Shown here: in pieces, positions 24,435 through 55,785 of the stretch
How the letters are laid out: each line of letters begins with the position of its first letter
How positions within the stretch are numbered: position 1 is the stretch's first letter
Source: Topomyia yanbarensis
Taxonomy: Eukaryota > Arthropoda > Insecta > Diptera > Culicidae
Reading direction: 5' to 3'
Assembly: GCF_030247195.1 (NCBI RefSeq)
Contig: NC_080672.1
Location: 348,004,413-348,068,412 of the forward strand
Length of the DNA: 64,000 bases
Notes under the pieces: model-generated
What the model was told of the DNA's origin: nothing
Seen by the model: only the letters and a program-made list of their open reading frames with translations
The model's database searches: none
Position numbers and translations under genes: made by a program

Positions 24435-25336
24435 TTAGGGCCAAGAACAACTTATGTAAGTATTTTCAAGGTCCGTAAGCCCATCGTTGGTGTTAGCTTG
24501 TGCCAGTTGACCACACAACTGATTACGATTGTTGATGTCCTGCAACAGCGATTGAAGGTAATCGTACACCAAAAGCAACATTTCCTGCCCGGAACTATAC
24601 CCCGCAGGCAATTGGGTAAGATACTGAAAAGATATGGAAATTTGAATATTTAGCATTACAGAAGATTTCTGTAACCTACATAATTCAGACACGTAGTGGC
24701 TGCTGCAGAGCTACAGAGCTGTTGTTGGTTTGCAAGCGAAACAAAATCTTTCTTCGCAACTGATATCATATTTAGAACTGTTGGCAGGGATGCAATAATC
24801 GTGTTCACATTATTTTGAACACATTGCCCTAATTTGACCAGCGAAGTCGGGGAGTTTGCCATTTGACTGGCATTTCTGGAAGTGCAGTATTCTCCATTAG
24901 TATTATATCCCATCTCTCCCAGAAGCATTCTGTAATAGTTCATAAGAGCATCGATTCCTTGATCCAAGTACCCGGTTAGCCCACTCAAATCATTTCCAAT
25001 TTGGTTGTCGATGCTCTTCTCTCCTGTGGCGATGATCTGATTCAAACTGAGCACATTTTGAACAAAATTCGGGAGCCCCGCCTGATTTGCCCCATACGTC
25101 TTATTCAACGCCGTGTAGGTTATGTTAACCCAGCGCATCAGACCGTTCAGACCGACAAATATCTGACTTCGGGCAGAGTTCAGAGTATCGTTGTAAGTTG
25201 CTACCACAGCCGTGATCTGCGTCAGGCTTTGACTAATCGTTACCAGCCCGTTGGATCCCACCGAAACGGGAGAGTACAGTGAGAGGGCCAAACCTAGACA
25301 TCCCAAAATACAGGCCAACGCCAGCCAACGACACAT
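24435..25336 (-). CDS. Secreted six-cysteine protein, family member 1
   Basis: Two exons, 25,336-24,680 (219 codons) and 24,623-24,435, join at a 56-bp intron with GTAGGTTAC donor and TTTTCAG acceptor, phase 0, between Tyr and Tyr. The product has 281 residues. An N-terminal hydrophobic signal peptide (MCRWLALACILGCLGLALS) is followed by a mostly helical, Leu/Asn/Ser-rich mature chain. It has N-glycosylation sequons (YNDT, VNIT, NKT, RNAS) and six cysteines (GEYC, LGQC, QQLC, TTC, NQLC, ISC). I do not recognise a named family. The Cys-spaced helical make-up recalls insect DUF725/TsetseEP-like proteins, an untested guess. It has two paralogues in the window, at 42.1 and 54.8 kb; 54.8 kb is closest (both carry VNITYTA.NKTYGANQ). 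The gene looks intact. Confidence 0.85.
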
Positions 25337-29467: not shown

Positions 29468-29753
29468 ATTCGTTTTCGAGCTCTCCATCGAGACAGAGGT
29501 TGTTTTTTCTAGTCCGTAGTGCTGTGTGAGGCGATAAAGAATAGTTTTAATCCGCATTCAAGGTTATTTTGCCAGTTCGGTTCGGTCCTCAGTCTTTTGT
29601 TCGCGTGTGAGGATTAAACAATAGCCAGCTGTATAAGCTGGATCGGTTCGTCGTTGGACACCAGTTTAAAGCTATGTGGTTTTTGTCTTTTGTAACACAT
29701 TTATTGCTTTCTTCCGTCTGCGCGGGCGCTGACCCCGTGCGTTGACGTTTTCT

Positions 29754-31073
29754 ATGGTTCCCTCTCCGGATGGTCAAATGGAAGTTGAATCGGGTACAAC
29801 TTCTAAGGCTCCCCCCCGGCCCAAATGCTATCCAGAACTCTCAACTGGTCCATTTGTGGTCTTCTTTCGGCCCAAGACTAAATCACTGAATCTTCTTCAG
29901 ATTTCTAGAGACCTGACGGAACGGTTCTCGGCTGTGACCGAAATTTCAAAGGTCCGCTCGGACAAGATAAGGGTGTTGCTAGCCAACTCAAAGCAGGCAA
30001 ACGATATTGCTTGCTGTGAGCACTTTACGCGGGATTATAACGTGTATATTCCGGCTGTAAGAGTACAATCCGAAGGCGTCGTAACCGATGAGAGTTTGAC
30101 GTGCGAGGATCTGCTGAAGTACGGGGTTGGCCGATTCAGAGACCGCTTACTTCAGCCAGTTAAAATACTTGAGTGCAAACGTTTGCACTCAGTAGTAGTT
30201 GCGGGGGACGGTTCAAAAACGTACCCCCAATCAAACTCTTATCGGGTGACCTTCGCTGGTACCGCTTTGCCAAATTTCGTCCTCTTGCACAAGGTTCGTC
30301 TGCCTGTGCGTCTGTTTGTGCCGCGGGTAATGAATTGCACAAAGTGTAAACAACTGGGTCACACAGCCACCCATTGTAGCAATAAGGCCCGCTGTGGAAA
30401 ATGCGGGGAGAATCATCTAGATGATTCGTGCAGTAAGCAAGCCGAAAAGTGTCCTTACTGTGCGGAGAGTCTGCATGATATCTCGGCATGTCCCGCGTAC
30501 AAACTACGCGGGGATAAACTGAAACGTTCCCTTGCGGGACGATCCAAACATTCTTTCGCAGAAATGTTAAAGAATGCTACGCCACCATCCTCAGCAAACA
30601 TCTATACTCACTTGCCTCCTGACGAGGGCGAGGCTGGTAACCCACAAGAGGGAACATCTACTAGGGTGCCTAGAATTTATAGGAAGAGGAGGAACACTTC
30701 CTCTCGTAAAGTTCCTTGTAAAGGCCAGAAGGTGTCCCTTGAGGGGGCTCCGAAAGTCACATCTATTGGAAGTGTTGCAACCAAACCGAAGCAATTAGCT
30801 CCTGGTCTCGGAGGATTAAGCTCAGAGAAGGAGTTCCCAGCACTTCCAGGAACATCAAAAATCCCAAGTGTTCCTTTGTTTCAGTTCGAGAGTAATCACA
30901 GCACTGGAATTATAAAACTTTCGGACATAGTGGACTGGATAATAAAAACTTTCAATATTACTGATCCTATTAAAAGTCTTATGTTAGCTTTTCTCCCTAC
31001 AGTGAGAACATTTTTGAAGCAGTTGACTGCTAAATGGCCCCTCCTCTCAGCGATTGTATCCTTCGATGGCTAA
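29754..31073 (+). CDS. I-clade LINE ORF1 (gag-like, three zinc knuckles)
   Basis: 439 residues from ATG 29,754 (MVPSPDGQME); an upstream TTG frame extension is not used. ORF1 proteins of this type bind element RNA and form the ribonucleoprotein. The N-terminal half (FVVFFRPKTKSLNLLQISRD) is the gag-like region. Three consecutive zinc knuckles follow at about residues 197-250: CTKCKQLGHTATHC (CX2CX4HX4C), CGKCGENHLDDSC (CX2CX3HX4C) and CPYCAESLHDISAC. The C-terminal third is basic, then Pro/Ser-rich (LGGLSSEKEFPALPG). The stop overlaps the ORF2 start in ATGGCTAA, suggesting translational coupling by reinitiation. No breaks. Confidence 0.88.
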   Translation: MVPSPDGQMEVESGTTSKAPPRPKCYPELSTGPFVVFFRPKTKSLNLLQISRDLTERFSAVTEISKVRSDKIRVLLANSKQANDIACCEHFTRDYNVYIPAVRVQSEGVVTDESLTCEDLLKYGVGRFRDRLLQPVKILECKRLHSVVVAGDGSKTYPQSNSYRVTFAGTALPNFVLLHKVRLPVRLFVPRVMNCTKCKQLGHTATHCSNKARCGKCGENHLDDSCSKQAEKCPYCAESLHDISACPAYKLRGDKLKRSLAGRSKHSFAEMLKNATPPSSANIYTHLPPDEGEAGNPQEGTSTRVPRIYRKRRNTSSRKVPCKGQKVSLEGAPKVTSIGSVATKPKQLAPGLGGLSSEKEFPALPGTSKIPSVPLFQFESNHSTGIIKLSDIVDWIIKTFNITDPIKSLMLAFLPTVRTFLKQLTAKWPLLSAIVSFDG

Positions 31074-34000
31074 CTCATCGAACGAGGTCACGGATTTGAT
31101 CACTGTTCTACAGTGGAATTGCAGAAGTATCATCCCGAAAATCGATTCCTTCAAAATTTTAATAAATAATTTGAGTTGCGATGCATTTGCATTATGTGAA
31201 ACTTGGTTAACTTCCGACATAGAACTCAACTTCCACGACTTTAATATTATTCGCCTGGATCGAGACACCCCCTATGGAGGAGTGCTTTTGGGGATCAAAA
31301 AGTGCTATTCCTTCTACAGAATTAACCTTCCCTCGATAACAGGTATTGAAGTTGTCGCTTGTCAAGTAACAACCAAAGACAAAAGCCTTTGCATAGCTTC
31401 CATATATATTCCCCCCAACACCGCGGTTGGGCACCGACGGCTACAAGACATCTTAGAATCCCTGCCAGCACCGCGACTAGTTTTAGGAGACTTTAACTCT
31501 CACGGTACAGCATGGGGTTGCCTCTATGATGATAACCGGTCTTCCTTAATTCAGGATCTTTGCGATAACTTCAATTTGACAATTTTAAACACGGGTGAAA
31601 TGACACGGATTCCTGCTCCTCCAGCGCGCCCGAGCGCCTTAGACTTGTCCCTTTGCTCAACATCGCTGCGGTTAAATTGCACGTGGAAGGTAATTCCTGA
31701 TCCCCACGGCAGCGACCATCTGCCGATTGTAGTCTCAATCAATAACGGTTCAAGGCCATTGAAATCAATCAATATTTCGTATGACCTCACACGAAATATC
31801 GATTGGAAGAGCTATGCTGCCGCGATATCCGACAACATCGAATCTACCCAAGAACTTCCTCCGGAGGAAGAGTACAGCTTTTTGGCTGGCTTGATTCTCG
31901 ACAGCGCGAATCAAGCTCAGACTAGGCCAGTACCCGGCGCGAACATACAAAAACGTTCTCCCAATCCCTGGTGGGATAAAGAGTGCTCAGACGTGTACGC
32001 AGAGAAGGCCGCCGCGTTTAAGACCTTCCGGAACGACGGGTTACCCGCCAGTTTTCGACAGTACGCGACGTTAGACAAGCGAATGAAGAGTTTGATGAAA
32101 GCCAAAAAACGCGATTATTGGCGCCGGTTCGTCGACGGATTAACGAGAGAAACATCGATGAGCACTCTTTGGGGAACAGCCCGACGTATGCGAAATCGAA
32201 ACAGTACTAATGAGAGCGTGGAATATTCAAACCGTTGGATATTCGATTTCGCCAAGAAGGTTTGTCCGGATTCCGCCCCGGCACAGAAGATTTACCGCGC
32301 CGCGTCTCCTCACGATAGCGCGAACGAAACACCTTTTTCGATGGTGGAGTTCTCACTTGCTCTCTTGTCGTGTAACAATAAAGCTCCGGGGCCAGACAGA
32401 ATCAAATTCAACTTGTTGAAGAATCTGCCTGACTCTGCCAAGAGACGCTTGTTGAACTTATTTAATAAGTTTCTCGAGGCTAACATTGTCCCACTCGATT
32501 GGAGACAAGTGAAGGTCATCGCCATCCAAAAACCAGGAAAACCAGCCTCCGACCACAATTCGTACCGTCCGATCGCAATGCTATCCTGTATCCGGAAGTT
32601 GTTCGAGAAAATGATCCTATCCCACCTCCACAATTGGGTCGAAGCAAATGGCTTACTGTCAGATACACAATTTGGCTTTCGCAAAGGCAAAGGGACGAAC
32701 GATTGTCTTGCGTTGCTCTCAACTGAAATTCAAATGGCCTATGCTAGCAAAGAGCAGATGGCATCAGTGTTCCTAGATATAAAGGGGGCTTTTGATTCAG
32801 TTTCGATCAACATTCTTTCAGAGAAGCTGCACCAGCATGGTCTTTCAGCGACTTTAAACAACTTTTTACTAAACTTGTTGTCGGAAAAGCACATGCATTT
32901 TTCGCATGGTGACTTATCGACATCACGATTTAGCTACATGGGCCTTCCCCAGGGCTCATGTCTAAGCCCCCTTTTATACAATTTCTATGTCAACGACATT
33001 GATGAATGTCTTGACAATTCCTGCACGTTAAGGCAACTTGCAGACGATGGCGTGGTGTCTGTTACGGGACCCAAAGCTGTCGATCTACAAGGACCATTAC
33101 AGAATACCCTGGACAATTTGTCTGCTTGGGCTATTAAGCTGGGTATCGAATTCTCCACGGAGAAAACTGAGCTAGTTGTATTTTCAAGGAAGCGTGAACC
33201 AGCACAACTACAGCTTCTATTAATGGGTCAAACTATCGCTCAGGTCTTCACAATAAAATATCTAGGGGTCTGGTTCGACTCGAAAGGTACTTGGGGATGC
33301 CATATTCGGTATCTGAAACAGAAATGCCAACAAAGGATCAACTTTCTTCGTACAATAACCGGAACATGGTGGGGTGCCCACCCAGGAGACCTAATTAGGT
33401 TGTATCAAACAACGATACTGTCGGTAATGGAATACGGATGCTTCTGCTTTCGCTCCGCCGCGAACATACATTTCATCAAACTCGAAAGAATTCAGTATCG
33501 TTGTTTGCGTATCGCCTTAGGGTGCATGCAGTCGACCCATACGATGAGTCTCGAAGTGCTGTCGGGCGTTCTCCCGTTGAAAAATCGATTTTGGGAACTC
33601 TCATATCGATTGCTCATTCGATGCGATATCTTGAACCCGGTCGTGATTGAAAATTTCGAAAGGCTTGTTGAGCTCAATTCTCAGACCCGTTTCATGTCCC
33701 TGTACTTTGACTACATGGCGCAGAATATTAACCCTTCTTCTTACAATCCCAACCGTGTGCATTTCATAAATACTTCTGAATCTACTGTTTTCTTCGACAC
33801 ATCCATGAAAGACGAGATTAGTGGAATTCCGGACCACATACGCCCACAAGTGGTTCCAAACATTTTTTATAATAAATTCCGAGAAGTCGACTGTTCTAAG
33901 ATGTTTTATACTGACGGATCAAACCTCGAAGGATCCACTGGCTTCGGTATTTTCAATCAAAAGTTCACCGCCTCCTACAAACTCAGTGACCCTGCTTCAG

Positions 34001-34752
34001 TTTACGCCGCAGAACTAGCTGCCATTCAGTATACCCTTGGAGTCATTGAAACATTACCCGCAGACCATTACTTCATCGTTTCGGATAGCCTCAGTTCCAT
34101 TGACGCTATTCGCTCGATGAAACAAGGCAAGCACTCCTCGTATTTTTTGGGGAAAATACGGGAGCTACTGAGTGCTTTATCTGACAACTCTTTCCAGATT
34201 ACCTTGGTATGGGTCCCTTCTCATTGCTCCATTCCGGGCAATGAGAAGGCAGACTCCTTAGCTAAGGTGGGTGCCTTAGAAGGAGACGTTTACGAAAGAC
34301 CAATTTGCTTCAGCGAATTTTTCAGTATTACTCATCAGAGAACCCTCGAAAGTTGGCAAACTTCGTGGAGCAGTGGAGAGCTGGGAAGGTGGCTACATTC
34401 GATAATCCCTAAGGTATCGACGAAACCTTGGTTCAAGGGGATGGATGTGGGTCGTGACTTCATTCGTGTGATGTCCCGACTCATGGCAAACCATTACACG
34501 CTGGATGCACATCTCCGGCGTATTGGGCTCGTGGATAGTGGTATCTGCGCTTGTGGCGACGGCTATCACGACATCGAGCACATTGTCTGGGCGTGCACCG
34601 AGTACAGTTCCGCTAGGTCTCGGCTAATGGATACCCTGCGGGCCCGAGGAAGACCAACCGACGTCCCGGTTCGAGATGTGCTGGCAAGCCGCGATGTTCT
34701 CTATATGTCCCTTATATACACCTTTGTGAAAACCATCAATATACAAGTCTAA
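31066..34752 (+). CDS. I-clade LINE ORF2 (endonuclease, RT, RNase H)
   Basis: 1,228 residues from ATG 31,066, overlapping ORF1 by 8 nt. An APE-type endonuclease is at about residues 10-225 (LQWNCRS, LCETWL, LGDFNSHGTAWG, GSDHLPI). Reverse transcriptase is at about 430-700: KAPGPDRIKFN, QKPGKPASDHNSYRPIAML, FGFRKGKGTND, VFLDIKGAFDSV (motif A), LPQGSCLSPLLYN (B), and QLADDGVVSV (C, LADD where YADD is usual). RNase H follows at about 945-1,075 with catalytic acids in YTDGSN, AAELAAIQ, VSDSLSS and NEKADSLAK. A C-terminal CACGDGYHDIEHIVWAC motif could bind zinc or nucleic acid. It would nick the target and copy the element RNA by target-primed reverse transcription. No disruption. Confidence 0.92.
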   Translation: MANSSNEVTDLITVLQWNCRSIIPKIDSFKILINNLSCDAFALCETWLTSDIELNFHDFNIIRLDRDTPYGGVLLGIKKCYSFYRINLPSITGIEVVACQVTTKDKSLCIASIYIPPNTAVGHRRLQDILESLPAPRLVLGDFNSHGTAWGCLYDDNRSSLIQDLCDNFNLTILNTGEMTRIPAPPARPSALDLSLCSTSLRLNCTWKVIPDPHGSDHLPIVVSINNGSRPLKSINISYDLTRNIDWKSYAAAISDNIESTQELPPEEEYSFLAGLILDSANQAQTRPVPGANIQKRSPNPWWDKECSDVYAEKAAAFKTFRNDGLPASFRQYATLDKRMKSLMKAKKRDYWRRFVDGLTRETSMSTLWGTARRMRNRNSTNESVEYSNRWIFDFAKKVCPDSAPAQKIYRAASPHDSANETPFSMVEFSLALLSCNNKAPGPDRIKFNLLKNLPDSAKRRLLNLFNKFLEANIVPLDWRQVKVIAIQKPGKPASDHNSYRPIAMLSCIRKLFEKMILSHLHNWVEANGLLSDTQFGFRKGKGTNDCLALLSTEIQMAYASKEQMASVFLDIKGAFDSVSINILSEKLHQHGLSATLNNFLLNLLSEKHMHFSHGDLSTSRFSYMGLPQGSCLSPLLYNFYVNDIDECLDNSCTLRQLADDGVVSVTGPKAVDLQGPLQNTLDNLSAWAIKLGIEFSTEKTELVVFSRKREPAQLQLLLMGQTIAQVFTIKYLGVWFDSKGTWGCHIRYLKQKCQQRINFLRTITGTWWGAHPGDLIRLYQTTILSVMEYGCFCFRSAANIHFIKLERIQYRCLRIALGCMQSTHTMSLEVLSGVLPLKNRFWELSYRLLIRCDILNPVVIENFERLVELNSQTRFMSLYFDYMAQNINPSSYNPNRVHFINTSESTVFFDTSMKDEISGIPDHIRPQVVPNIFYNKFREVDCSKMFYTDGSNLEGSTGFGIFNQKFTASYKLSDPASVYAAELAAIQYTLGVIETLPADHYFIVSDSLSSIDAIRSMKQGKHSSYFLGKIRELLSALSDNSFQITLVWVPSHCSIPGNEKADSLAKVGALEGDVYERPICFSEFFSITHQRTLESWQTSWSSGELGRWLHSIIPKVSTKPWFKGMDVGRDFIRVMSRLMANHYTLDAHLRRIGLVDSGICACGDGYHDIEHIVWACTEYSSARSRLMDTLRARGRPTDVPVRDVLASRDVLYMSLIYTFVKTINIQV

Positions 34753-36699: not shown

Positions 36700-36765
36700 T
36701 AGAATCCAGCGCATCCCCTATCAACGCAGACGCCAACAACAAAGGTTCTTTTCAGAGCCACCATG
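36700..36765 (+). pseudogene. H3-like 3' end with histone stem-loop
   Basis: AATCCAGCGCATCCCCTATC and the following ACGCAGACGCCAACAACAAA match the end of H3 copy 3 (2,030-2,066). GGTTCTTTTCAGAGCC at 36,744-36,759 is a perfect histone stem-loop (one G-U pair), followed by purine-rich TATAAAGAATGACTTG. The coding body is lost. Confidence 0.65.
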
Positions 36766-36890: not shown

Positions 36891-37893
36891 TCTACTCTGT
36901 CATTTTTCAACAGATTTTTAATTCTCTAGGTGTTTTGGAAAGAAGAAGAAATGACCTTTCCAACGGTATGTTATGTTATGTCCTTTTGTTAAAAGTACTA
37001 TGCGGCTTTCAGTCAACAATGTGAAAGTACCCCTTTTTTGCGTTTTTTAATCAAAAACATGAATATTGTTCTACATTTTTATTAGGAAGCGTCTTTGTTT
37101 AAACATAAAATTAGAAAGAGTTATAATTTTTTTTCCAGATTAGAAAAAAAAAATTCCAAATTAGAAAGTATAACTTTTGATAAGGGCAAAATTTTCTCAC
37201 AAAAACAAGTAATGCTAATAAATGTGACTATTGCCTTTCATTTGAGTATTAATAGTTTCAAGGCCCAGCTCTAGAACTGAAGTTATTGCAATTAGTCTGA
37301 TTGGATTCCGATGGAGCAGTGCTTCCAGGAACAGTTTACGTTGACGACGGAAAATGAATTTTCCATATATCTTCGTCATGTTGCAATATTATTGAAAATT
37401 GATAAAACTTATCAATTTAGACTGGCTGCATTTTTCACGCAATTGGACTATTGTAAATATTCTAGGAGAATTGTGTTGAGCATTAGAAGATGAAAATTGA
37501 GCAGATTCTAGCACTGCGAGGGAAGCACCTATCTTTATGAAAAAAGGCTTTTCGTGTTTCTTGACCCCACCATTTTCAAGGCAAAATAGTTTTGAAACCC
37601 TACATGCACTAGAAAAAAGTTGGACATGAAAGGGTTAAGAGTTCATGCGAGCAAGTTTCTAATTTGGAAAAAAAAATAATAAGTCTGCTATTTTTGAACC
37701 GATTTTGATGATAAATAAGTCGTTGGCTGCGTAATTGAATGCTCTCTCTAAAATTTTATTGAAACAAAGACGCTTCTTTCGAAGATTCTTGAGTAATTTT
37801 CATAGAAAAATCGCAAAATTATGGATATTTTCATATTGTTGACCCAAAACCGCAAAGTATCTTGGACAAAAGAATAAAACATACTATGCTATA

Positions 37894-37961
37894 AAGCCGG
37901 CGCCAATCTATTCTGACATAAAGTTAGTGTCGGTTTCTGATGAGGCGAAGCCGAAACGTAA
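37894..37961 (+). ncRNA. Half hammerhead motif starting at cleavage position
   Basis: Contains stem I AAGCCGGCGC...GTGTCGGTTT, CTGATGA (37,937-37,943), stem II GGC-GAA-GCC (37,944-37,952), GAAA (37,953-37,956) and the 3' stem III strand ACGTAA. The 5' stem III strand and cleavage triplet are absent, replaced by TATGCTATA. It cannot self-cleave alone and looks like the product 5' end of a cleaved monomer. Confidence 0.7.
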
Positions 37962-38227
37962 CCGTGTAACAAATAAGGATTTGTGTCCTTCAAGTGCAAA
38001 AACTGGTTTTACCAAAAAAAAATCGCCCTAGTGAGAAATTTGGTGTTTATCCAATTTTCCTCCTTAGGGTGAAATATAGCATAGTGCTTTCGCATAGGCC
38101 TGCTAAGCCAAGACAAGTTTCGACGTCACTGTGTCTCATCGCCATAAACAGAACTTCTGCGCGGACGGGACATCAGTTTGATCAGTCGGTCGATTGAAAC
38201 ACAAAGTGTGTTTTAGTTTTAAGGGAT

Positions 38228-38302
38228 TTGCGTCAAGCCGGCGCTAATCTATTCCGACATAAAGTTAGTGTCGGTTTCTGATGAGGCGAAGCCGAAACGC
38301 AA
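38228..38302 (+). ncRNA. Complete type III hammerhead ribozyme
   Basis: All invariant parts are present. Stem III is TTGCGT (38,228-38,233) with ACGCAA (38,297-38,302), six Watson-Crick pairs. Cleavage is predicted after C38,234 in GTC. Stem I is AAGCCGGCGC (38,235-38,244) with GTGTCGGTTT (38,268-38,277), ten pairs including G-U, extended by TAA/TTA. CTGATGA is at 38,278-38,284. Stem II is GGC/GCC with a GAA loop (38,285-38,293). GAAA is at 38,294-38,297. The short stem II resembles other animal retroelement hammerheads. Activity is inferred from sequence; the fold was made by eye. Confidence 0.85.
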
Positions 38303-38659
38303 CCGTGTAACAACAAAACATAGCATATGGTTGAAAAGGTCATTCCTTTTTCTTTCCAGAACACTCAAAAAATTTAAAACAACCGCGTAGAAATTTGTTT
38401 AATGGCAAAAGTCCCGAAAATAGTTTTTTTTGTAATATATCAAGATTTTGAGGGTACACAACATTTTTCAAACATTGTCTTGTGTTGTATTTTGCGAGAT
38501 CTACAACCTATACTAGATCTATTCTTTGTTCCACTTTCTAAGAAAATATTTTGTATCCAGTCATATATAGAGTGAAACAGCCACATTATTTTTTTTCTTC
38601 AGGCTTGTCTTTCTAATTATATTCCCCATGATTTCTGTCTCTTCCTTCATATTCTACAG

Positions 38660-42074: not shown

Positions 42075-43033
42075 ATGAAATTCTTCCTTGCGCTCGTTGG
42101 GACCATGTGCTTCGTTGGCCTAATTTGGGCCCAAAGCACAGTTCTAATTAACGTCGCTGGTGACGTTGCTCTTGGCCTTAACAGTTTAAACAACACAATA
42201 AAAGCGATCAACAAAACGGCCATCGCTGCGGATACGGTTACTGTAGCTACGTGGAATAGTTGGGGTAATACCATGATTTCAAACCTCACCACGCTAGTGA
42301 ACCGTTTCGCCAGTTATCCCGATTACGTCAGTGGTGCATTGAATAATGTGAACAACACCATAGCTAGTCTTCAATCATTGATCAGTACTGCCGGACCTAA
42401 CCTACTGTCAACCGATCCTACACTTCAGAACTTATACTCGAACGTTTATCAACTGGCCGCACAAACTGGCAACACACTGGCAGCGGTTGCGCTTAATTTG
42501 ACCTCACAGGCTACCGGTAATAATGCCGATAGTTGTTTGCAAAAATACGGTGCCAGTTTAACCGTCTCCCCGATCTTGATGAGCCGCTTCTACAAATGTC
42601 TTTCAGTAGAAAAAAAATAGAATCGCAAATATCGGAGTTAACGTCACGACTCAGATAAACGACGCAATCGCTACATCGCAAACCTTCTACAAACTCCTAG
42701 CGACATGTAATGTTCCAACAGCTGCCACTATGAATGCTTCCTGGTCCCGCTCAGTGCCATCGGTCCAGTGTCTTGAGCTGGTAATACTTTTTCTTCGAAC
42801 CTCAATAAAATAATAATAATTCCAAACTTCCCTTTCAACAGTATCTGACCGGCATCACCAACTATCCACCAATTAGTTCACTGAACAACATTGTCGATTC
42901 AATGCGCACTCAGCAACTTCAGATGGTTTCCTTCAGAGCGAATCAATGCGCCCAGCTTATTCAGTACGACATTCAAGATGCCGTGACTCAGGTTGAAGCT
43001 GCCTTCACCACATGTTTATCAACCGGATCCTAA
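42075..43033 (+). CDS. Secreted six-cysteine protein, family member 2 (frameshifted)
   Basis: Exon 1 runs 42,075-42,780 and exon 2 42,842-43,033. The 61-bp intron (GTAATA...CAACAG) is in phase 0 before a Tyr, as in the paralogues. The signal peptide is MKFFLALVGTMCFVGLIWA; N-glycosylation sequons are frequent. As written, the frame stops at TAG 42,618 after 181 residues. One base fewer in the A8 run at 42,610-42,617 would keep exon 1 open to the splice site, for about 298 residues. The downstream frame contains NIGVNVTTQINDAIATSQTF, SVPSVQCLEL and, in exon 2, YLTGITNYPP...FTTCLSTGS. It restores the six-Cys pattern (DSC, YKC, ATC, VQC, NQC, TTC). Because coding character persists beyond the shift, this is either a homopolymer sequencing error or a very young pseudogene. 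Function unknown. Confidence 0.75.
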
Positions 43034-45019: not shown

Positions 45020-45790
45020 CTGCATATTTTGCCTTCCATTTGAGACTTTGTTTGAGAAAATCGGTTCAGTCATCACCAAGAGAACCGATGTGACTTTAAT
45101 TGTGGAATATGCCCGGAATTCCGGAATCGTCGATAGTGGACAATATATTCAAAGAATGTTTGATTGGCAATCAGTGATCCAGATCTGCGATTAGAAGTAA
45201 TTTGGTGACCATTTCAATAGTTTTTAGCCTCTGAGGTATTACGATTGTACCGATTTATATGGGAAATTCCAGTGTATCCTTATTAACACCCCTGTAACTC
45301 CGGAAGCAAGAGTCAGAACCGAATAAAATTCAGCAGCAGTCAATGGTATTACTGTATCTTTCATATGAAATCAAGTTTGTAAAAATCGGTAGAGAATTCG
45401 TTGGGGAATGGGTGTGATATTAGCTTAGGAACTTGGCGAGTTCCCCGGGGGCGTCATGAACCGTCATAGGTGGCCAATGTGGTTAAAGCTGCTTTAATTG
45501 ATCATTAGTGATCCAGACCCGCAAACTAGAGTAATGTTACATCAATTTTAATATGTTTTACATCATTTTAACATCATGGTGGTACCAGTTTATATGGGAA
45601 TTTGCCGTGTGACCGCACTCTTCAACCCGTAACTCCGGAACCGGAAGTCGGATCAACCAAAAATTCAATAGCAGCTTATAGGAGCGTTATACCTTTCAGA
45701 TGAAACTAAGTTTGCGAAAATCGGTTCAGCCATCTCTGAGAAAATTTTGTGAGTTTAAATGACACACACACATACACACACAAACATTTC
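45020..45790. repeat. Further modules of the culicine dispersed repeat
   Basis: Two modules with ACTCCGGAA, TTCAATAGCAGC and CGGTTCAGCCATCTC words, ending in a short CACACATACACACA tract directly before the R1-like coding sequence. Confidence 0.5.
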
Positions 45791-45803
45791 GTGCGACGCC
45801 ACT

Positions 45804-47809
45804 ATGCCGAGAAAAACACTGCCAAGAAACGGCAGATGCCCGGTATACTGGTGGAGTGCCGCGATTGCAGCTCTACGGTCAGCCTGCCTCAGAGCTAGAC
45901 GTAGGATGCAAAGAGCTCGCACCGAGGATGCAAGAGAGAACCGCCGTGAAGTGCTTCGAGCTGCGAAATTGGCCCTTAGCAAGGCCATTAAAAGCAGCAA
46001 GAGAGCGTGTTTCGACAACCTGTGTGAGAGTGCCAACGCGAATCCGTGGGGTGACGCCTATAGGATTGTGATGGCCAAGACCAAAGGGGGCTCCTCACCC
46101 CCAGAACGGTCTCCGGACCGGTTGGCAACGATTATCGAAGTACTCTTCCCGTCTCGTGCCACAAGCCTCTGGCCACCTGCACTACGAGACAGTGCGGGCA
46201 CGGCCGAAATGGTGGCTCCAGTGACGAATGAAGAACTACTCGCAGTGGCTAAATCCCTAGCAATGAACAAAGCTCCAGGGCCGGATGGAGTTCCAAACAA
46301 CGCCCTCAAGGCAGCGATAATAGCGAACCCGAACATGTTCAGGCTAGCTATGCAGAGATGCCTTGATGAGTGCCGTTTCCCCGATAGATGGAAAAGGCAG
46401 AAATTGGTGCTGTTGCCGAAGCCCGGGAAGCCGCCAGGCGACCCATCGGAGTACAGACCAATCTGTCTGATCGACACGACTGGCAAAATGCTTGAGAGGA
46501 TCATCCTCAACAGGCTAACCCCGTACGCGGAAGGTACGGACGGTCTGTCAAGCAACCAGTCTGGCTTTCGGAAGGGTAAGTCCACAGTGGACGCTCTCAA
46601 CTCAGTGATAAATACTGCCGAGATAGCGATCCAACGAAAAAGGCGAGGTATTCGATACTGTGCGTTAGTGACACTTGACGTGAAGAACGCATTCAACAGC
46701 GCAAGCTGGGATGCCATCGCGCTCTCGTTACACCGGCTTAGCCTACCGGTGGGTCTGTACCGGATCCTGGAAAGTTACTTCCAAAACCGCGTACTGCTAT
46801 ACGAGACCGATGCCGGTCAGAAAAGGGTTCCGATTACCGCCGGAGTCCCGCAGGGCTCGATCCTAGGCCCGGTGCTATGTAACCTCATGTATGACGGGGT
46901 TCTGATACTGAAGTTCCCTCCTGGGGTCAAGATCGTCGGCTTTGCCGACGACGTAACCTTGGAGGTCTACGGGGAGTCAATTCCTGAGGTAGAACTAGGC
47001 CTGGAGCTCGCTCATCATAAGACGGAGGTAGTTATCGTCAACAACCGCAAGTCGGCACAACATGCAGTTATCCATGTGGGAGAAGTCGCGATCACTTCAC
47101 AGCGAAGTCTGAAGTCTCTCGGAGTCATTATAGACGACAAGCTGACCTTCGGCAGCCATGTCGACTATACATGCAAGAGAGCGTCGACTGCTGTTGCGGC
47201 TCTATCGAGAATGATGTCCAACAGCTCAAAGGTGTGCGCCAGTAGACGTAGATTACTGGCAGGCGTTGCCGTATCTATCCTCAGGTACGGCGGCCCGTCA
47301 TGGTCAAGAGCACTGAGGGTAACCAGTTACTTACAGAAACTGGAGAGCACCTACCGCGTGATGTGCCTCAGAGTGATATCTGCCTACCGCACGGTATCAC
47401 ACGATGCATCCTGCGTGATAGCGAGCATGATGCCAGTCGGGCTGGTCATTCGGGAAGATGAGGAGTGCTTCGAGCTACGTGTAAATAGGGGAGCCCGCGA
47501 GCGCACCAGGGTGACCTCGGTCGCCAGATGGCAGCGTGAGTGGGACAACTCCTCGAAAGGTAGGTGGACCCACCGGCTGATACCTAACATATCGAGCTGG
47601 GTGGGAGACCCCATGGGGAAGTTCACTTCCACCTGACACAATTCCTGTCAGGCCATGGCTGTTTCCGACAGTACCTCCACAGGTTCGGGCACGCGGAGGT
47701 CCCAGTCTGCCCGGACTGCCCAGGTGTAGACGAAACTACCGAACACATACTGTTCGTATGCCATCGGTTCGACGTCGAAAGAAGAGCAATGCTTGACGTC
47801 TGTGGCTGA
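45804..47809 (+). pseudogene. R1-clade LINE pol, 5'-truncated and frameshifted
   Basis: A single frame runs to a stop at 47,634-47,636 from the linker (MPRKTLPRNGRCPVYWWS) through RT. RT words: NKAPGPDGVPNNALK, LLPKPGKPPGDPSEYRPICL, SGFRKGKSTVDALN, LVTLDVKNAFNSASW (motif A), AGVPQGSILGPVL (B), and GFADDV (C, FADD at 46,941-46,952). The endonuclease is missing. About 20 residues seem deleted between GESIPEVE and GLELAHHKTE. A frameshift near 47,625 separates the C-terminal domain, which reads HGCFRQYLHRFGHA and CPDCPGVDETTEHILFVC (CCHC, R1-type) up to TGA 47,807. It is the best preserved R1-like copy here and was inserted into the nest inside the DNA element. Confidence 0.82.
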
Positions 47810-54807: not shown

Positions 54808-55713
54808 TTATTGTGGCGGCCATGCACACAGCGAGAAGGCACTTGTCAGATTTGAAACCGCATCCTGGATGTCGCTTTGAACCAGTTGACCACAGAATGA
54901 ATTGCGGTTATAGGCGTCTTGGAATGCCATTGATATGAAGTTATTCAGCATGTACAACATGCTGTTTCCGGTACTTGATTCCATATACACCTGTTCGAAG
55001 TACTGAAATAAAACAAAAACGTTAGATGACTGCATACTTGTGGAGGCTGGACGACTTACGTAGTTTTGACAGGTGATGGATGCAGCATTACAAATCTTCA
55101 GCTGGTTCACGAACGAGACGAAATCACTTTTAATGACCGATATAATGTTCATGATGGGTGGAACGTATGCCGTCACCGTAGCCGTGTTTATCTGGAGGCA
55201 TTGGCCCAGCTTGACCAAAGAAGTCGGCACGTTAATCATCTGAGTGGCGTTGCGAATCGTACAGTTATCGGAATTAGCATTATACGGCATCTGCCCCAGC
55301 AACATGTTGTAATATTGGATGATATTGTCAATTGCCTGCCTTAGAGATTGACTAAGACCAGTCAAATCATTTGAGATAGCCGAAGTAGCAGATTGATCAC
55401 CATATCCTATAGTTTGGTTGAAATACTGCAAATTTGATACAAAATCCCGTAACATCGTCTGATTGGCACCGTAGGTTTTATTCATCGCCGTGTAAGTAAT
55501 GTTGACCCAGCCCATCAGATCGGTAAGACCAACGAACACCTGATTACGGGCAGTGTTCAGAGTGCTCTGGTAGGTGGCTACCACGCCAGCGATTTGCTGC
55601 AGGCTATTACTGAGCGTCACCAGACCACTTGAACCAACTGAAATGGCGGCGTACATGGTGAATGCCCCACCTAGGCATCCCAGGATACAGACCAGCGTTA
55701 ACCAACGGTTCAT
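54808..55713 (-). CDS. Secreted six-cysteine protein, family member 3
   Basis: Exons 55,713-55,060 (218 codons) and 55,002-54,808 join across a 57-bp phase-0 intron (GTAAGTCG...TATTTCAG) between Tyr and Tyr. The intron has no stop and is a multiple of three, so retaining it would leave an open frame. The spliced product has 282 residues. I start at MNRWLTLVCILGCLGGAF by alignment with member 1; an upstream in-frame ATG would add ten residues that spoil the signal peptide. The mature chain carries sequons and six cysteines (DNC, GQC, KIC, ITC, SFC, SLC), and VNITYTAMNKTYGANQ almost identical to member 1. Apparently intact; function unknown. Confidence 0.87.
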   Translation of the reverse strand: MNRWLTLVCILGCLGGAFTMYAAISVGSSGLVTLSNSLQQIAGVVATYQSTLNTARNQVFVGLTDLMGWVNITYTAMNKTYGANQTMLRDFVSNLQYFNQTIGYGDQSATSAISNDLTGLSQSLRQAIDNIIQYYNMLLGQMPYNANSDNCTIRNATQMINVPTSLVKLGQCLQINTATVTAYVPPIMNIISVIKSDFVSFVNQLKICNAASITCQNYVSRPASTSMQSSNVFVLFQYFEQVYMESSTGNSMLYMLNNFISMAFQDAYNRNSFCGQLVQSDIQDAVSNLTSAFSLCAWPPQ

Positions 55714-55785
55714 TATTTCGGCTGCTGGATTCAACTTGTTCAAATCCCGAACAATTACTGATGATAGTCGGGATGGGACGAATAT

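Follow-up and report, generated by a model that had tools for sequence, protein, structure and literature searches.

This locus raises the question of what kind of element left a split hammerhead ribozyme motif in a mosquito chromosome, and how that element was copied into the genome. The window, which is the whole 64,000-nucleotide stretch of Topomyia yanbarensis DNA that was analysed, contains a 79-nt direct repeat at 37894-37972 and 38235-38313. The two copies are 96% identical, differ by three transitions and are spaced 341 nt apart, exactly as an earlier note on this DNA had reported. Positions in the monomer are numbered from m1 (37894, the base 3' of the predicted cut) to m341 (38234). 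The upstream copy does start at the base after the predicted cut, as was also proposed there. The 10 nt before m1 were left unexplained in that account.

Together with the bases that precede it, the downstream copy forms a predicted hammerhead, TTGCGTC/AAGCCGGCGCTAA...TTAGTGTCGGTTT-CTGATGA-GGCGAAGCC-GAAA-CGCAA, where the slash marks the cut. From 5' to 3', the first strand of stem III is followed by the cut, the hairpin of stem I, the core, the hairpin of stem II and the second strand of stem III. The parts comprise a 6-bp open stem III, an NTH site, a 13-bp stem I (14 bp counting a closing T-G), a 3-bp stem II and a complete core. Both the type III core (CUGANGA, GAAA, NUH and three stems) and the open-ended stem III are present. 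Of the type III hammerhead previously claimed for this copy, the core and the 6-bp stem III stand; stem I has 13 bp, not ten. The repeat and hammerhead features are as follows.

37894..37972, plus strand: upstream 79-nt repeat, a half hammerhead that lacks the 5' strand of stem III
38235..38313, plus strand: downstream 79-nt repeat
38228..38302, plus strand: complete hammerhead whose stem III (38228-38233 paired with 38297-38302) is open, with predicted cleavage after 38234; Rfam score below gathering
38235..38277, plus strand: stem I, in which 38235-38247 pairs with 38265-38277 (13 bp, 17-nt loop)
38278..38297, plus strand: CTGATGA, 3-bp stem II with GAA loop, and GAAA

A strict hammerhead descriptor has one match in the window, both strands included, and none in 52 Mb of first-order random sequence. 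The relaxed descriptor also has one match in the window, against 7 in the 52 Mb of random sequence (approximately 0.02 expected per 128 kb). On the minus strand, the descriptor scan of the window finds no hammerhead. The Rfam search that had been suggested as a check gives no match at the gathering threshold, and the type III score is far below its cut-off. Permissive filters give RF00008 a score of 18.7 bits (E 0.28, against a gathering score of 48.5). This match is in a different register, with TTAGTGTC taken for the 5' strand; for the upstream half copy the score is 15.4 bits. The minimum fold energy is -25.4 kcal/mol, compared with -22.5 kcal/mol for the ribozyme structure, so the hammerhead is not the program's preferred fold. 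The usual type III form has a 6-bp stem I and loop contacts to a 4-nt loop II, according to the available text of PMC7936874. The form found here, with a 13-bp stem I and a GAA loop II, is not of this kind. Rejection of the hammerhead on the Rfam result alone was considered and overridden; the motif is kept because of the descriptor statistics and its conservation across the family. A separate feature of this region is the pair CCGACA...TGTCGG (38254-38275, in the same place in other copies), whose pairing into a hairpin would compete with the 13-bp stem I. The ribozyme may be switched between an active and an inactive state by this predicted hairpin.

The insert lies within an imperfect foldback element, and its anatomy can be read against this host.

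36915..38379, no strand: host imperfect foldback element, with arms 36915-37110 and 37754-37883 plus 38323-38379
37876..37883, no strand: left target-site duplication AAAACATA, which extends to AATAAAACATA (37873-37883), 11 nt with one mismatch
37884..37893, minus strand: arm B, a 10-nt antisense stub CTATGCTATA that is the exact reverse complement of m182-m191 (38075-38084), an inverted repeat with similar B-end termini elsewhere
37894..38313, plus strand: arm A, 420 nt, m1-m341 followed by m1-m79 of the next unit, with its inner end exactly at the cut site
38315..38322, no strand: right target-site duplication AAAACATA, preceded by an extra C at 38314

When 37884-38322 is removed, the host arm aligns continuously to its partner over 143/197 columns with a score of 177. 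When the insert is kept, the left part alone aligns (98/140, score 111). The foldback arm is unbroken once the insert is taken out, and the empty site can therefore be seen. Judged from the sequence, the AAAACATA copies are the target-site duplication of an insertion. They border exactly the interval that had been assigned to the element earlier (37876-37883 and 38315-38322).

Searching the T. yanbarensis genome, with 40 of 1,623 candidates scored, yields at least 91 matches. Most are 90-95% identical (range 69-96% by two alignments). Among the matches listed, tandem arrays occur with steps of approximately 342 bases. The earlier description of a mobile repeat with a hammerhead in a mosquito is borne out by these matches, which form a multicopy family with tandem arrays. 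The set examined here consists of 35 loci (34 fetched places and the window) with 42 blocks in total; C537 (of C936) and C3:73510705 (of C3:73553748) were left out as equal-score duplicates. The loci are the top scorers for a 420-nt query that starts at m1. Because the query begins at m1, arm lengths and the count of m1 ends are biased, and the proportions given below are provisional.

The hammerhead is conserved in this family. In 84 full-length copies, CTGATGA is present in 72, GAAAC in 73 and the cut-site motif in 74. The hammerhead is intact in the consensus of 60 of these copies, aligned at 93% identity. Compensatory changes in the stems are not readable from the family since the copies are too alike. 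The monomer is 341 nt with a GC content of 43%. The longest open stretch in the circular monomer is 75 aa on the plus strand and 42 aa on the minus strand, lengths on which viroid-like coding was rejected. Exact patterns found no relatives in IMG/VR and a prokaryote genome set. An old relative is present on the minus strand at L043:1217-1359, 68.5% identical over 143 nt. Its stem II is GAC-GAA-GTC, versus GGC-GAA-GCC in the family, a change from G-C to A-T on both sides; it is a single relative that does not pass the full descriptor. Its sequence suggests that diverged families exist. A higher-order repeat occurs at L009:1808-4771, where blocks of at least two monomers recur at a spacing of approximately 940 bases. 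The most variable region measured is m69-m79 (0.137 versus 0.03-0.05), just before the site at which arm A ends. By eye, two subfamilies can be separated there, AACC or ACCC versus AACT.

Many inserts have two arms joined head to head at a variable junction: arm A, in sense orientation, with its end near m79, and arm B, antisense, with its start near m191. A joint fit was defined by a left end at m187-m194 antisense, a right end at m74-m83 sense and a duplication of 9-15 bp. This fit places 18/42 blocks at 18/35 loci, with duplications of 9-15 bp that are mostly 11 bp. Fit scores are 35-49, compared with a median of 18 in 87 random placements (highest random scores 42, 24 and 24). Three blocks that scored 35 or more are not counted because they failed the end criterion: the first of L009, the first of L042, and that of L025, which has a 21-nt local duplication. 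The 24/42 blocks outside the fit are arrays, truncations, an assembly gap, or blocks in which the duplication was not found.

The joint fit itself seeks the two ends, and the ends were therefore also typed by motif, ignoring the duplication. By this typing, 17/42 blocks have one A and one B end. The window makes 18, although the host flank there is similar to end B, so that both motifs match at the right end of the insert. Blocks with two A ends or two clear B ends number 0/42, and the remaining 24/42 have one, no or an ambiguous end. The chance rates of the end motifs in random places are 11/516 and 10/516, approximately 2%. The 18 fitted and the 18 motif-typed sets have 16 loci in common. 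Ends elsewhere do occur: the B arm starts from m216 at L029 and from m118 at L031, and the right end is at m122 at L034 and at m56 at L036. L016 and L035 have a B end only. The duplications are 74% A+T, versus 64% in the flanks.

The lengths of arms A and B are 420/10 nt in the window, 509/~225 at L019, 393/237 at L040 and 183/~552 at L013. Arms exceed one unit in both directions (L015 A, 761 nt; L018 A, 1,508 nt; L034 B, 383 nt). The inner ends at L033 and L038 are unsure, as the alignments differ. The insert had previously been taken as one and a quarter monomers. There are indeed 1.23 monomers between the target-site duplications, but the insert is more than that: it has two inverted arms, one ending at m79 (sense) and the other at m191 (antisense). 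That these ends are fixed and differ between the arms suggests copying from both target strands. In a circular fold, the two end sites lie in the following contexts.

37968..37991, plus strand: unpaired AACAAAT stretch (m75-m81) around the arm-A site m79/80 (37972/37973), 5' of a predicted hairpin at m82-m97
38075..38095, plus strand: arm-B site m191/192 (38084/38085), where a small hairpin predicted for m191-m202 has its base

Arm A stops exactly at m1 in 4/18 fitted inserts (the window, L015, L017 and L024). These stops fall one or two units upstream. L023, which is outside the fits, has an end at m1 as well. At L014, L026 and L039, and at L033 with an unsure junction, arm A stops beyond the cut site at m304-m335, which implies that uncut templates are used too. 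By coordinates, all 18 fitted A arms cross a cleavage junction (the shortest is 183 nt). The A site lies 11 bases past the 3' strand of stem III (m68), so that any A arm longer than approximately 86 nt contains a complete ribozyme. The enrichment of 5' ends at the cut site that had been predicted is present but partial, at 4/18 fitted inserts in a biased sample. Arms that stop at m1 would be explained by run-off on a 5' end cut by the hammerhead, which requires a linear oligomer whose downstream junction is uncut. Run-off on such an oligomer appears to fit the m1-ending arms better than copying a plain circle. Of the self-processed multimer or circle proposed earlier, the linear oligomer appears the better template than the plain circle, given the uncut junctions and the m1-ending arms.

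One RNA with two fixed internal start sites, one per strand, would be the simplest account of the ends, the junctions, the duplications and the long arms. The family is rather likely to be a non-autonomous, non-coding, multicopy retrozyme-like element with a 341-nt monomer and a predicted type III hammerhead, target-primed from both nicked strands at two fixed RNA sites, probably by a Penelope-like enzyme. Genomic copies would give rise to oligomeric transcripts, and hammerhead cutting would leave a 5'-OH end at m1. A Penelope-like enzyme with reverse transcriptase (RT) and GIY-YIG domains would hold one RNA and nick both strands of an AT-rich target approximately 8-15 bp apart. Each new 3' end would then prime at its own fixed internal site, m79/80 or m191/192, as the fixed, unlike ends suggest. 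Both cDNAs would extend to the 5' end of the RNA, at times past one unit and at times running off at m1. Head-to-head joining of the two cDNAs would follow, and the target-site duplication would arise when the staggered nicks are repaired. The stricter claim, that two-site priming is obligate and every insertion is born as two inverted cDNAs from m79 and m191 on one RNA, is held about evenly balanced.

Penelope-like machinery, the candidate source of the enzyme, is present in the genome beside the L020 copy. A GIY-YIG frame there scores 25.2 bits (cut-off 22.6), and an RT frame matches RVT_1 at 20.2 bits, below the cut-off of 29.6. This RT frame contains RYVDD, which we take to be a reverse transcriptase motif. 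The best protein match to the RT frame is from Topomyia, 92% identical and above the RVT_1 cut-off, and an Aedes albopictus relative has RVT_1 and GIY-YIG within one protein. From these frames we infer that Penelope-like machinery moves the 341-nt family. No shared ends or ribozyme were found that would link the family directly to a Penelope-like element. Repeats around the RT frames at L043 were considered as pLTRs and dropped as evidence, since they could be a MITE.

The family might instead be an ordinary metazoan non-LTR retrozyme, whose circular RNA is copied round and round and whose inverted arm is an accident of LINE-type twin priming or template switching. Much of the general form is as this would predict: a 341-nt monomer, 43% GC, tandem arrays, duplications longer than 4 bp and arms longer than one unit. 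Units are also closer within an insert (mean divergence 0.050, 38 blocks) than between loci (0.073), a difference compatible with either a circle or an oligomer. An accident does not account for an inverted arm that is common and has mostly one start site, or for the lack of any block with two clearly like ends. The hammerhead is type III, not type I. In addition, the 420- and 761-nt arms that end at m1 presuppose an RNA whose 5' end was cut one or two units before a junction left intact, and a closed circle has no such end. This reading is accordingly regarded as unlikely. Slightly less probable again is the same two-armed insertion carried out by an APE-type LINE rather than a Penelope-like enzyme. 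LINE-1 is capable of twin priming, and the long ORF of the I-like element at window 29742-34752, which has RT, endonuclease and RNase H domains, ends approximately 3 kb away. By eye, its 3' region shows no match to the ends of the element. Internal two-site initiation with extension of both strands is reported for PAc, an anole Penelope-like protein, unlike R2Bm and human LINE-1 (PMC11167929).

The size and copy number would also suit a SINE in which the hammerhead-like stretch is decorative, as would a hammerhead score under the Rfam threshold. A simple pattern scan of 37860-38340 on both strands finds no A or B box, the strict descriptor is absent from the random sequence, and 4/18 fitted inserts stop at the cut site, which leaves this reading very improbable. 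A DNA transposon or MITE that contains a hammerhead by chance is the least credible of the four. It would be short, non-coding, interspersed and bordered by target-site duplications, as these inserts are, but CTATGCTATA at one end is no inverted copy of GTGTAACAA at the other, the duplication length varies over 9-15 bp in the fits, the inverted middle junction is variable and the arms can exceed one unit.

Target-primed copying from two fixed sites, the favoured reading, has its closest parallel in PAc. This protein cleaves and extends both strands, and its reverse transcription begins at two internal sites associated with an AC-rich stem-loop (PMC11167929). Two-site initiation and both-strand extension by PAc are contrasted in that paper with R2Bm and human LINE-1. 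The likeness would lie in the proposed extension of both strands and the two proposed internal start sites. The differences are that the PAc start sites are 30-40 nt apart, in the tail, with no strand difference, whereas those proposed for the 341-nt family are 112 nt apart, one per strand. For this family, the two start sites are read from the insert ends m79 and m191, and their spacing and strand use are unlike those of PAc. PAc ribozyme mutants inserted equally well (PMC11167929), and these differences count against the favoured reading. More generally, the family is like Penelope-like elements in its partial tandem and head-to-head inverted copies, variable short duplications, AT-rich targets and hammerhead (PMC11167929 and the available text of PMC3846280). 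The latter text gives Penelope-like duplications as 8-10 bp and favours self-priming on antisense RNA for inverted copies in rotifers, allowing other routes. In the accessible part of PMC3846280 and in PMC11167929, Penelope-like elements encode both RT and GIY-YIG, and their hammerheads are of the minimal type I; the 341-nt element codes for nothing.

With metazoan non-LTR retrozymes, as described in the portion of PMC7229834 available, the family shares a short hammerhead monomer, tandem copies, GC below 50%, the lack of a long ORF and duplications longer than 4 bp. Their tandem repeats of 150-450 bp with GC below 50% include the values found here, 341 nt and 43%. Those retrozymes carry type I hammerheads, whereas the open stem III of the 341-nt family is of type III, which sets the family apart from the textbook animal retrozyme. 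The description in that portion contains no two-armed inserts whose ends are fixed and unlike. The same source proposes that Penelope-like elements move animal retrozymes. Plant LTR retrozymes, in the available parts of PMC7229834 and PMC7761336, likewise have a type III hammerhead, are non-autonomous and contain two ribozyme repeats. They differ in having LTRs, a PBS and a PPT, units of approximately 600-1000 nt and 4-bp duplications. In the 341-nt family, duplications are 9-15 bp in the fits and terminal repeats are not the pattern.

Type III hammerheads of termites, a toad and dipterans, or HDV-like ones, share with the family the type III topology, a long stem I and occurrence in insects, including dipterans (PMC7936874, available text). 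They have a 5-bp first stem, an internal loop, an extra hairpin, a 6-bp stem II and a loop pseudoknot; in the family, stem I is continuous over 13 bp and the 3-bp stem II carries a GAA loop. That text describes the termite motifs as isolated and defers dipteran details to later work. Insect elements with type III hammerheads are mentioned as in preparation in the accessible part of a review (PMC7761336). Hammerheads of Aedes aegypti are also from a mosquito and repeat-associated, but have a closed stem III with a loop III that could pair in a dimer, according to the available text of PMC3088659; stem III of the 341-nt family is open. A literature search, thin on subscription journals, found no mosquito type III retrozyme and no twin priming with a hammerhead element. 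Within the same scope, no animal retrozyme-like family with a type III hammerhead and no rule of one end of each kind was described. Animal type I retrozymes, the mention of type III hammerheads in insects, and inverted Penelope-like copies with variable duplications are already known.

With this family, an animal retrozyme-like element is seen to carry a predicted type III hammerhead. In the reviews covered, type III is attributed mainly to plants and infectious RNAs, and insects receive a mention in the part of PMC7761336 available. Since the family is small, multicopy and little diverged, its inserts are readable base by base, and those that could be read follow a single rule: each has one A and one B end. 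Penelope-like elements are a third class of eukaryotic retroelements, and the two-armed inserts may bear on how their tandem and inverted copies arise. Their later insertion steps were left for validation in the anole paper (PMC11167929). If obligate two-site priming is true, closer sites would explain inverted Penelope-like pLTRs and tails with no antisense templates or self-priming, and this mosquito element would be a minimal model for such priming. Copying from both cut DNA ends may help to explain insertion of a poorly understood class of jumping genes. The 341-nt RNA is suited to direct tests of ribozyme cutting and two-site priming.

Other features of the window lie outside the insert. 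Rfam identifies two histone 3' stem-loops at 2062-2107 and 2507-2552, and a GGTTCTTTTCAGAGCC stretch near 36745 resembles histone stem-loops by eye. The window may contain histone genes or relics. The I-like LINE at 29742-34752 has a 1,232-aa ORF with endonuclease, RT and RNase H domains; its upstream ORF has no Pfam match and is gag-like by eye. A 625-aa ORF with a reverse transcriptase domain at 45759-47636 probably belongs to a second LINE. The ORFs at 24656-25336, 42075-42620 and 54808-55743 have no Pfam match. Over 54808-55716, the predicted protein shares 94% identity with a T. yanbarensis protein. The ORF at 54808-55743 has seven relatives, all from Topomyia, Malaya and Wyeomyia, and the ORF at 24656-25336 is similar to it by eye.
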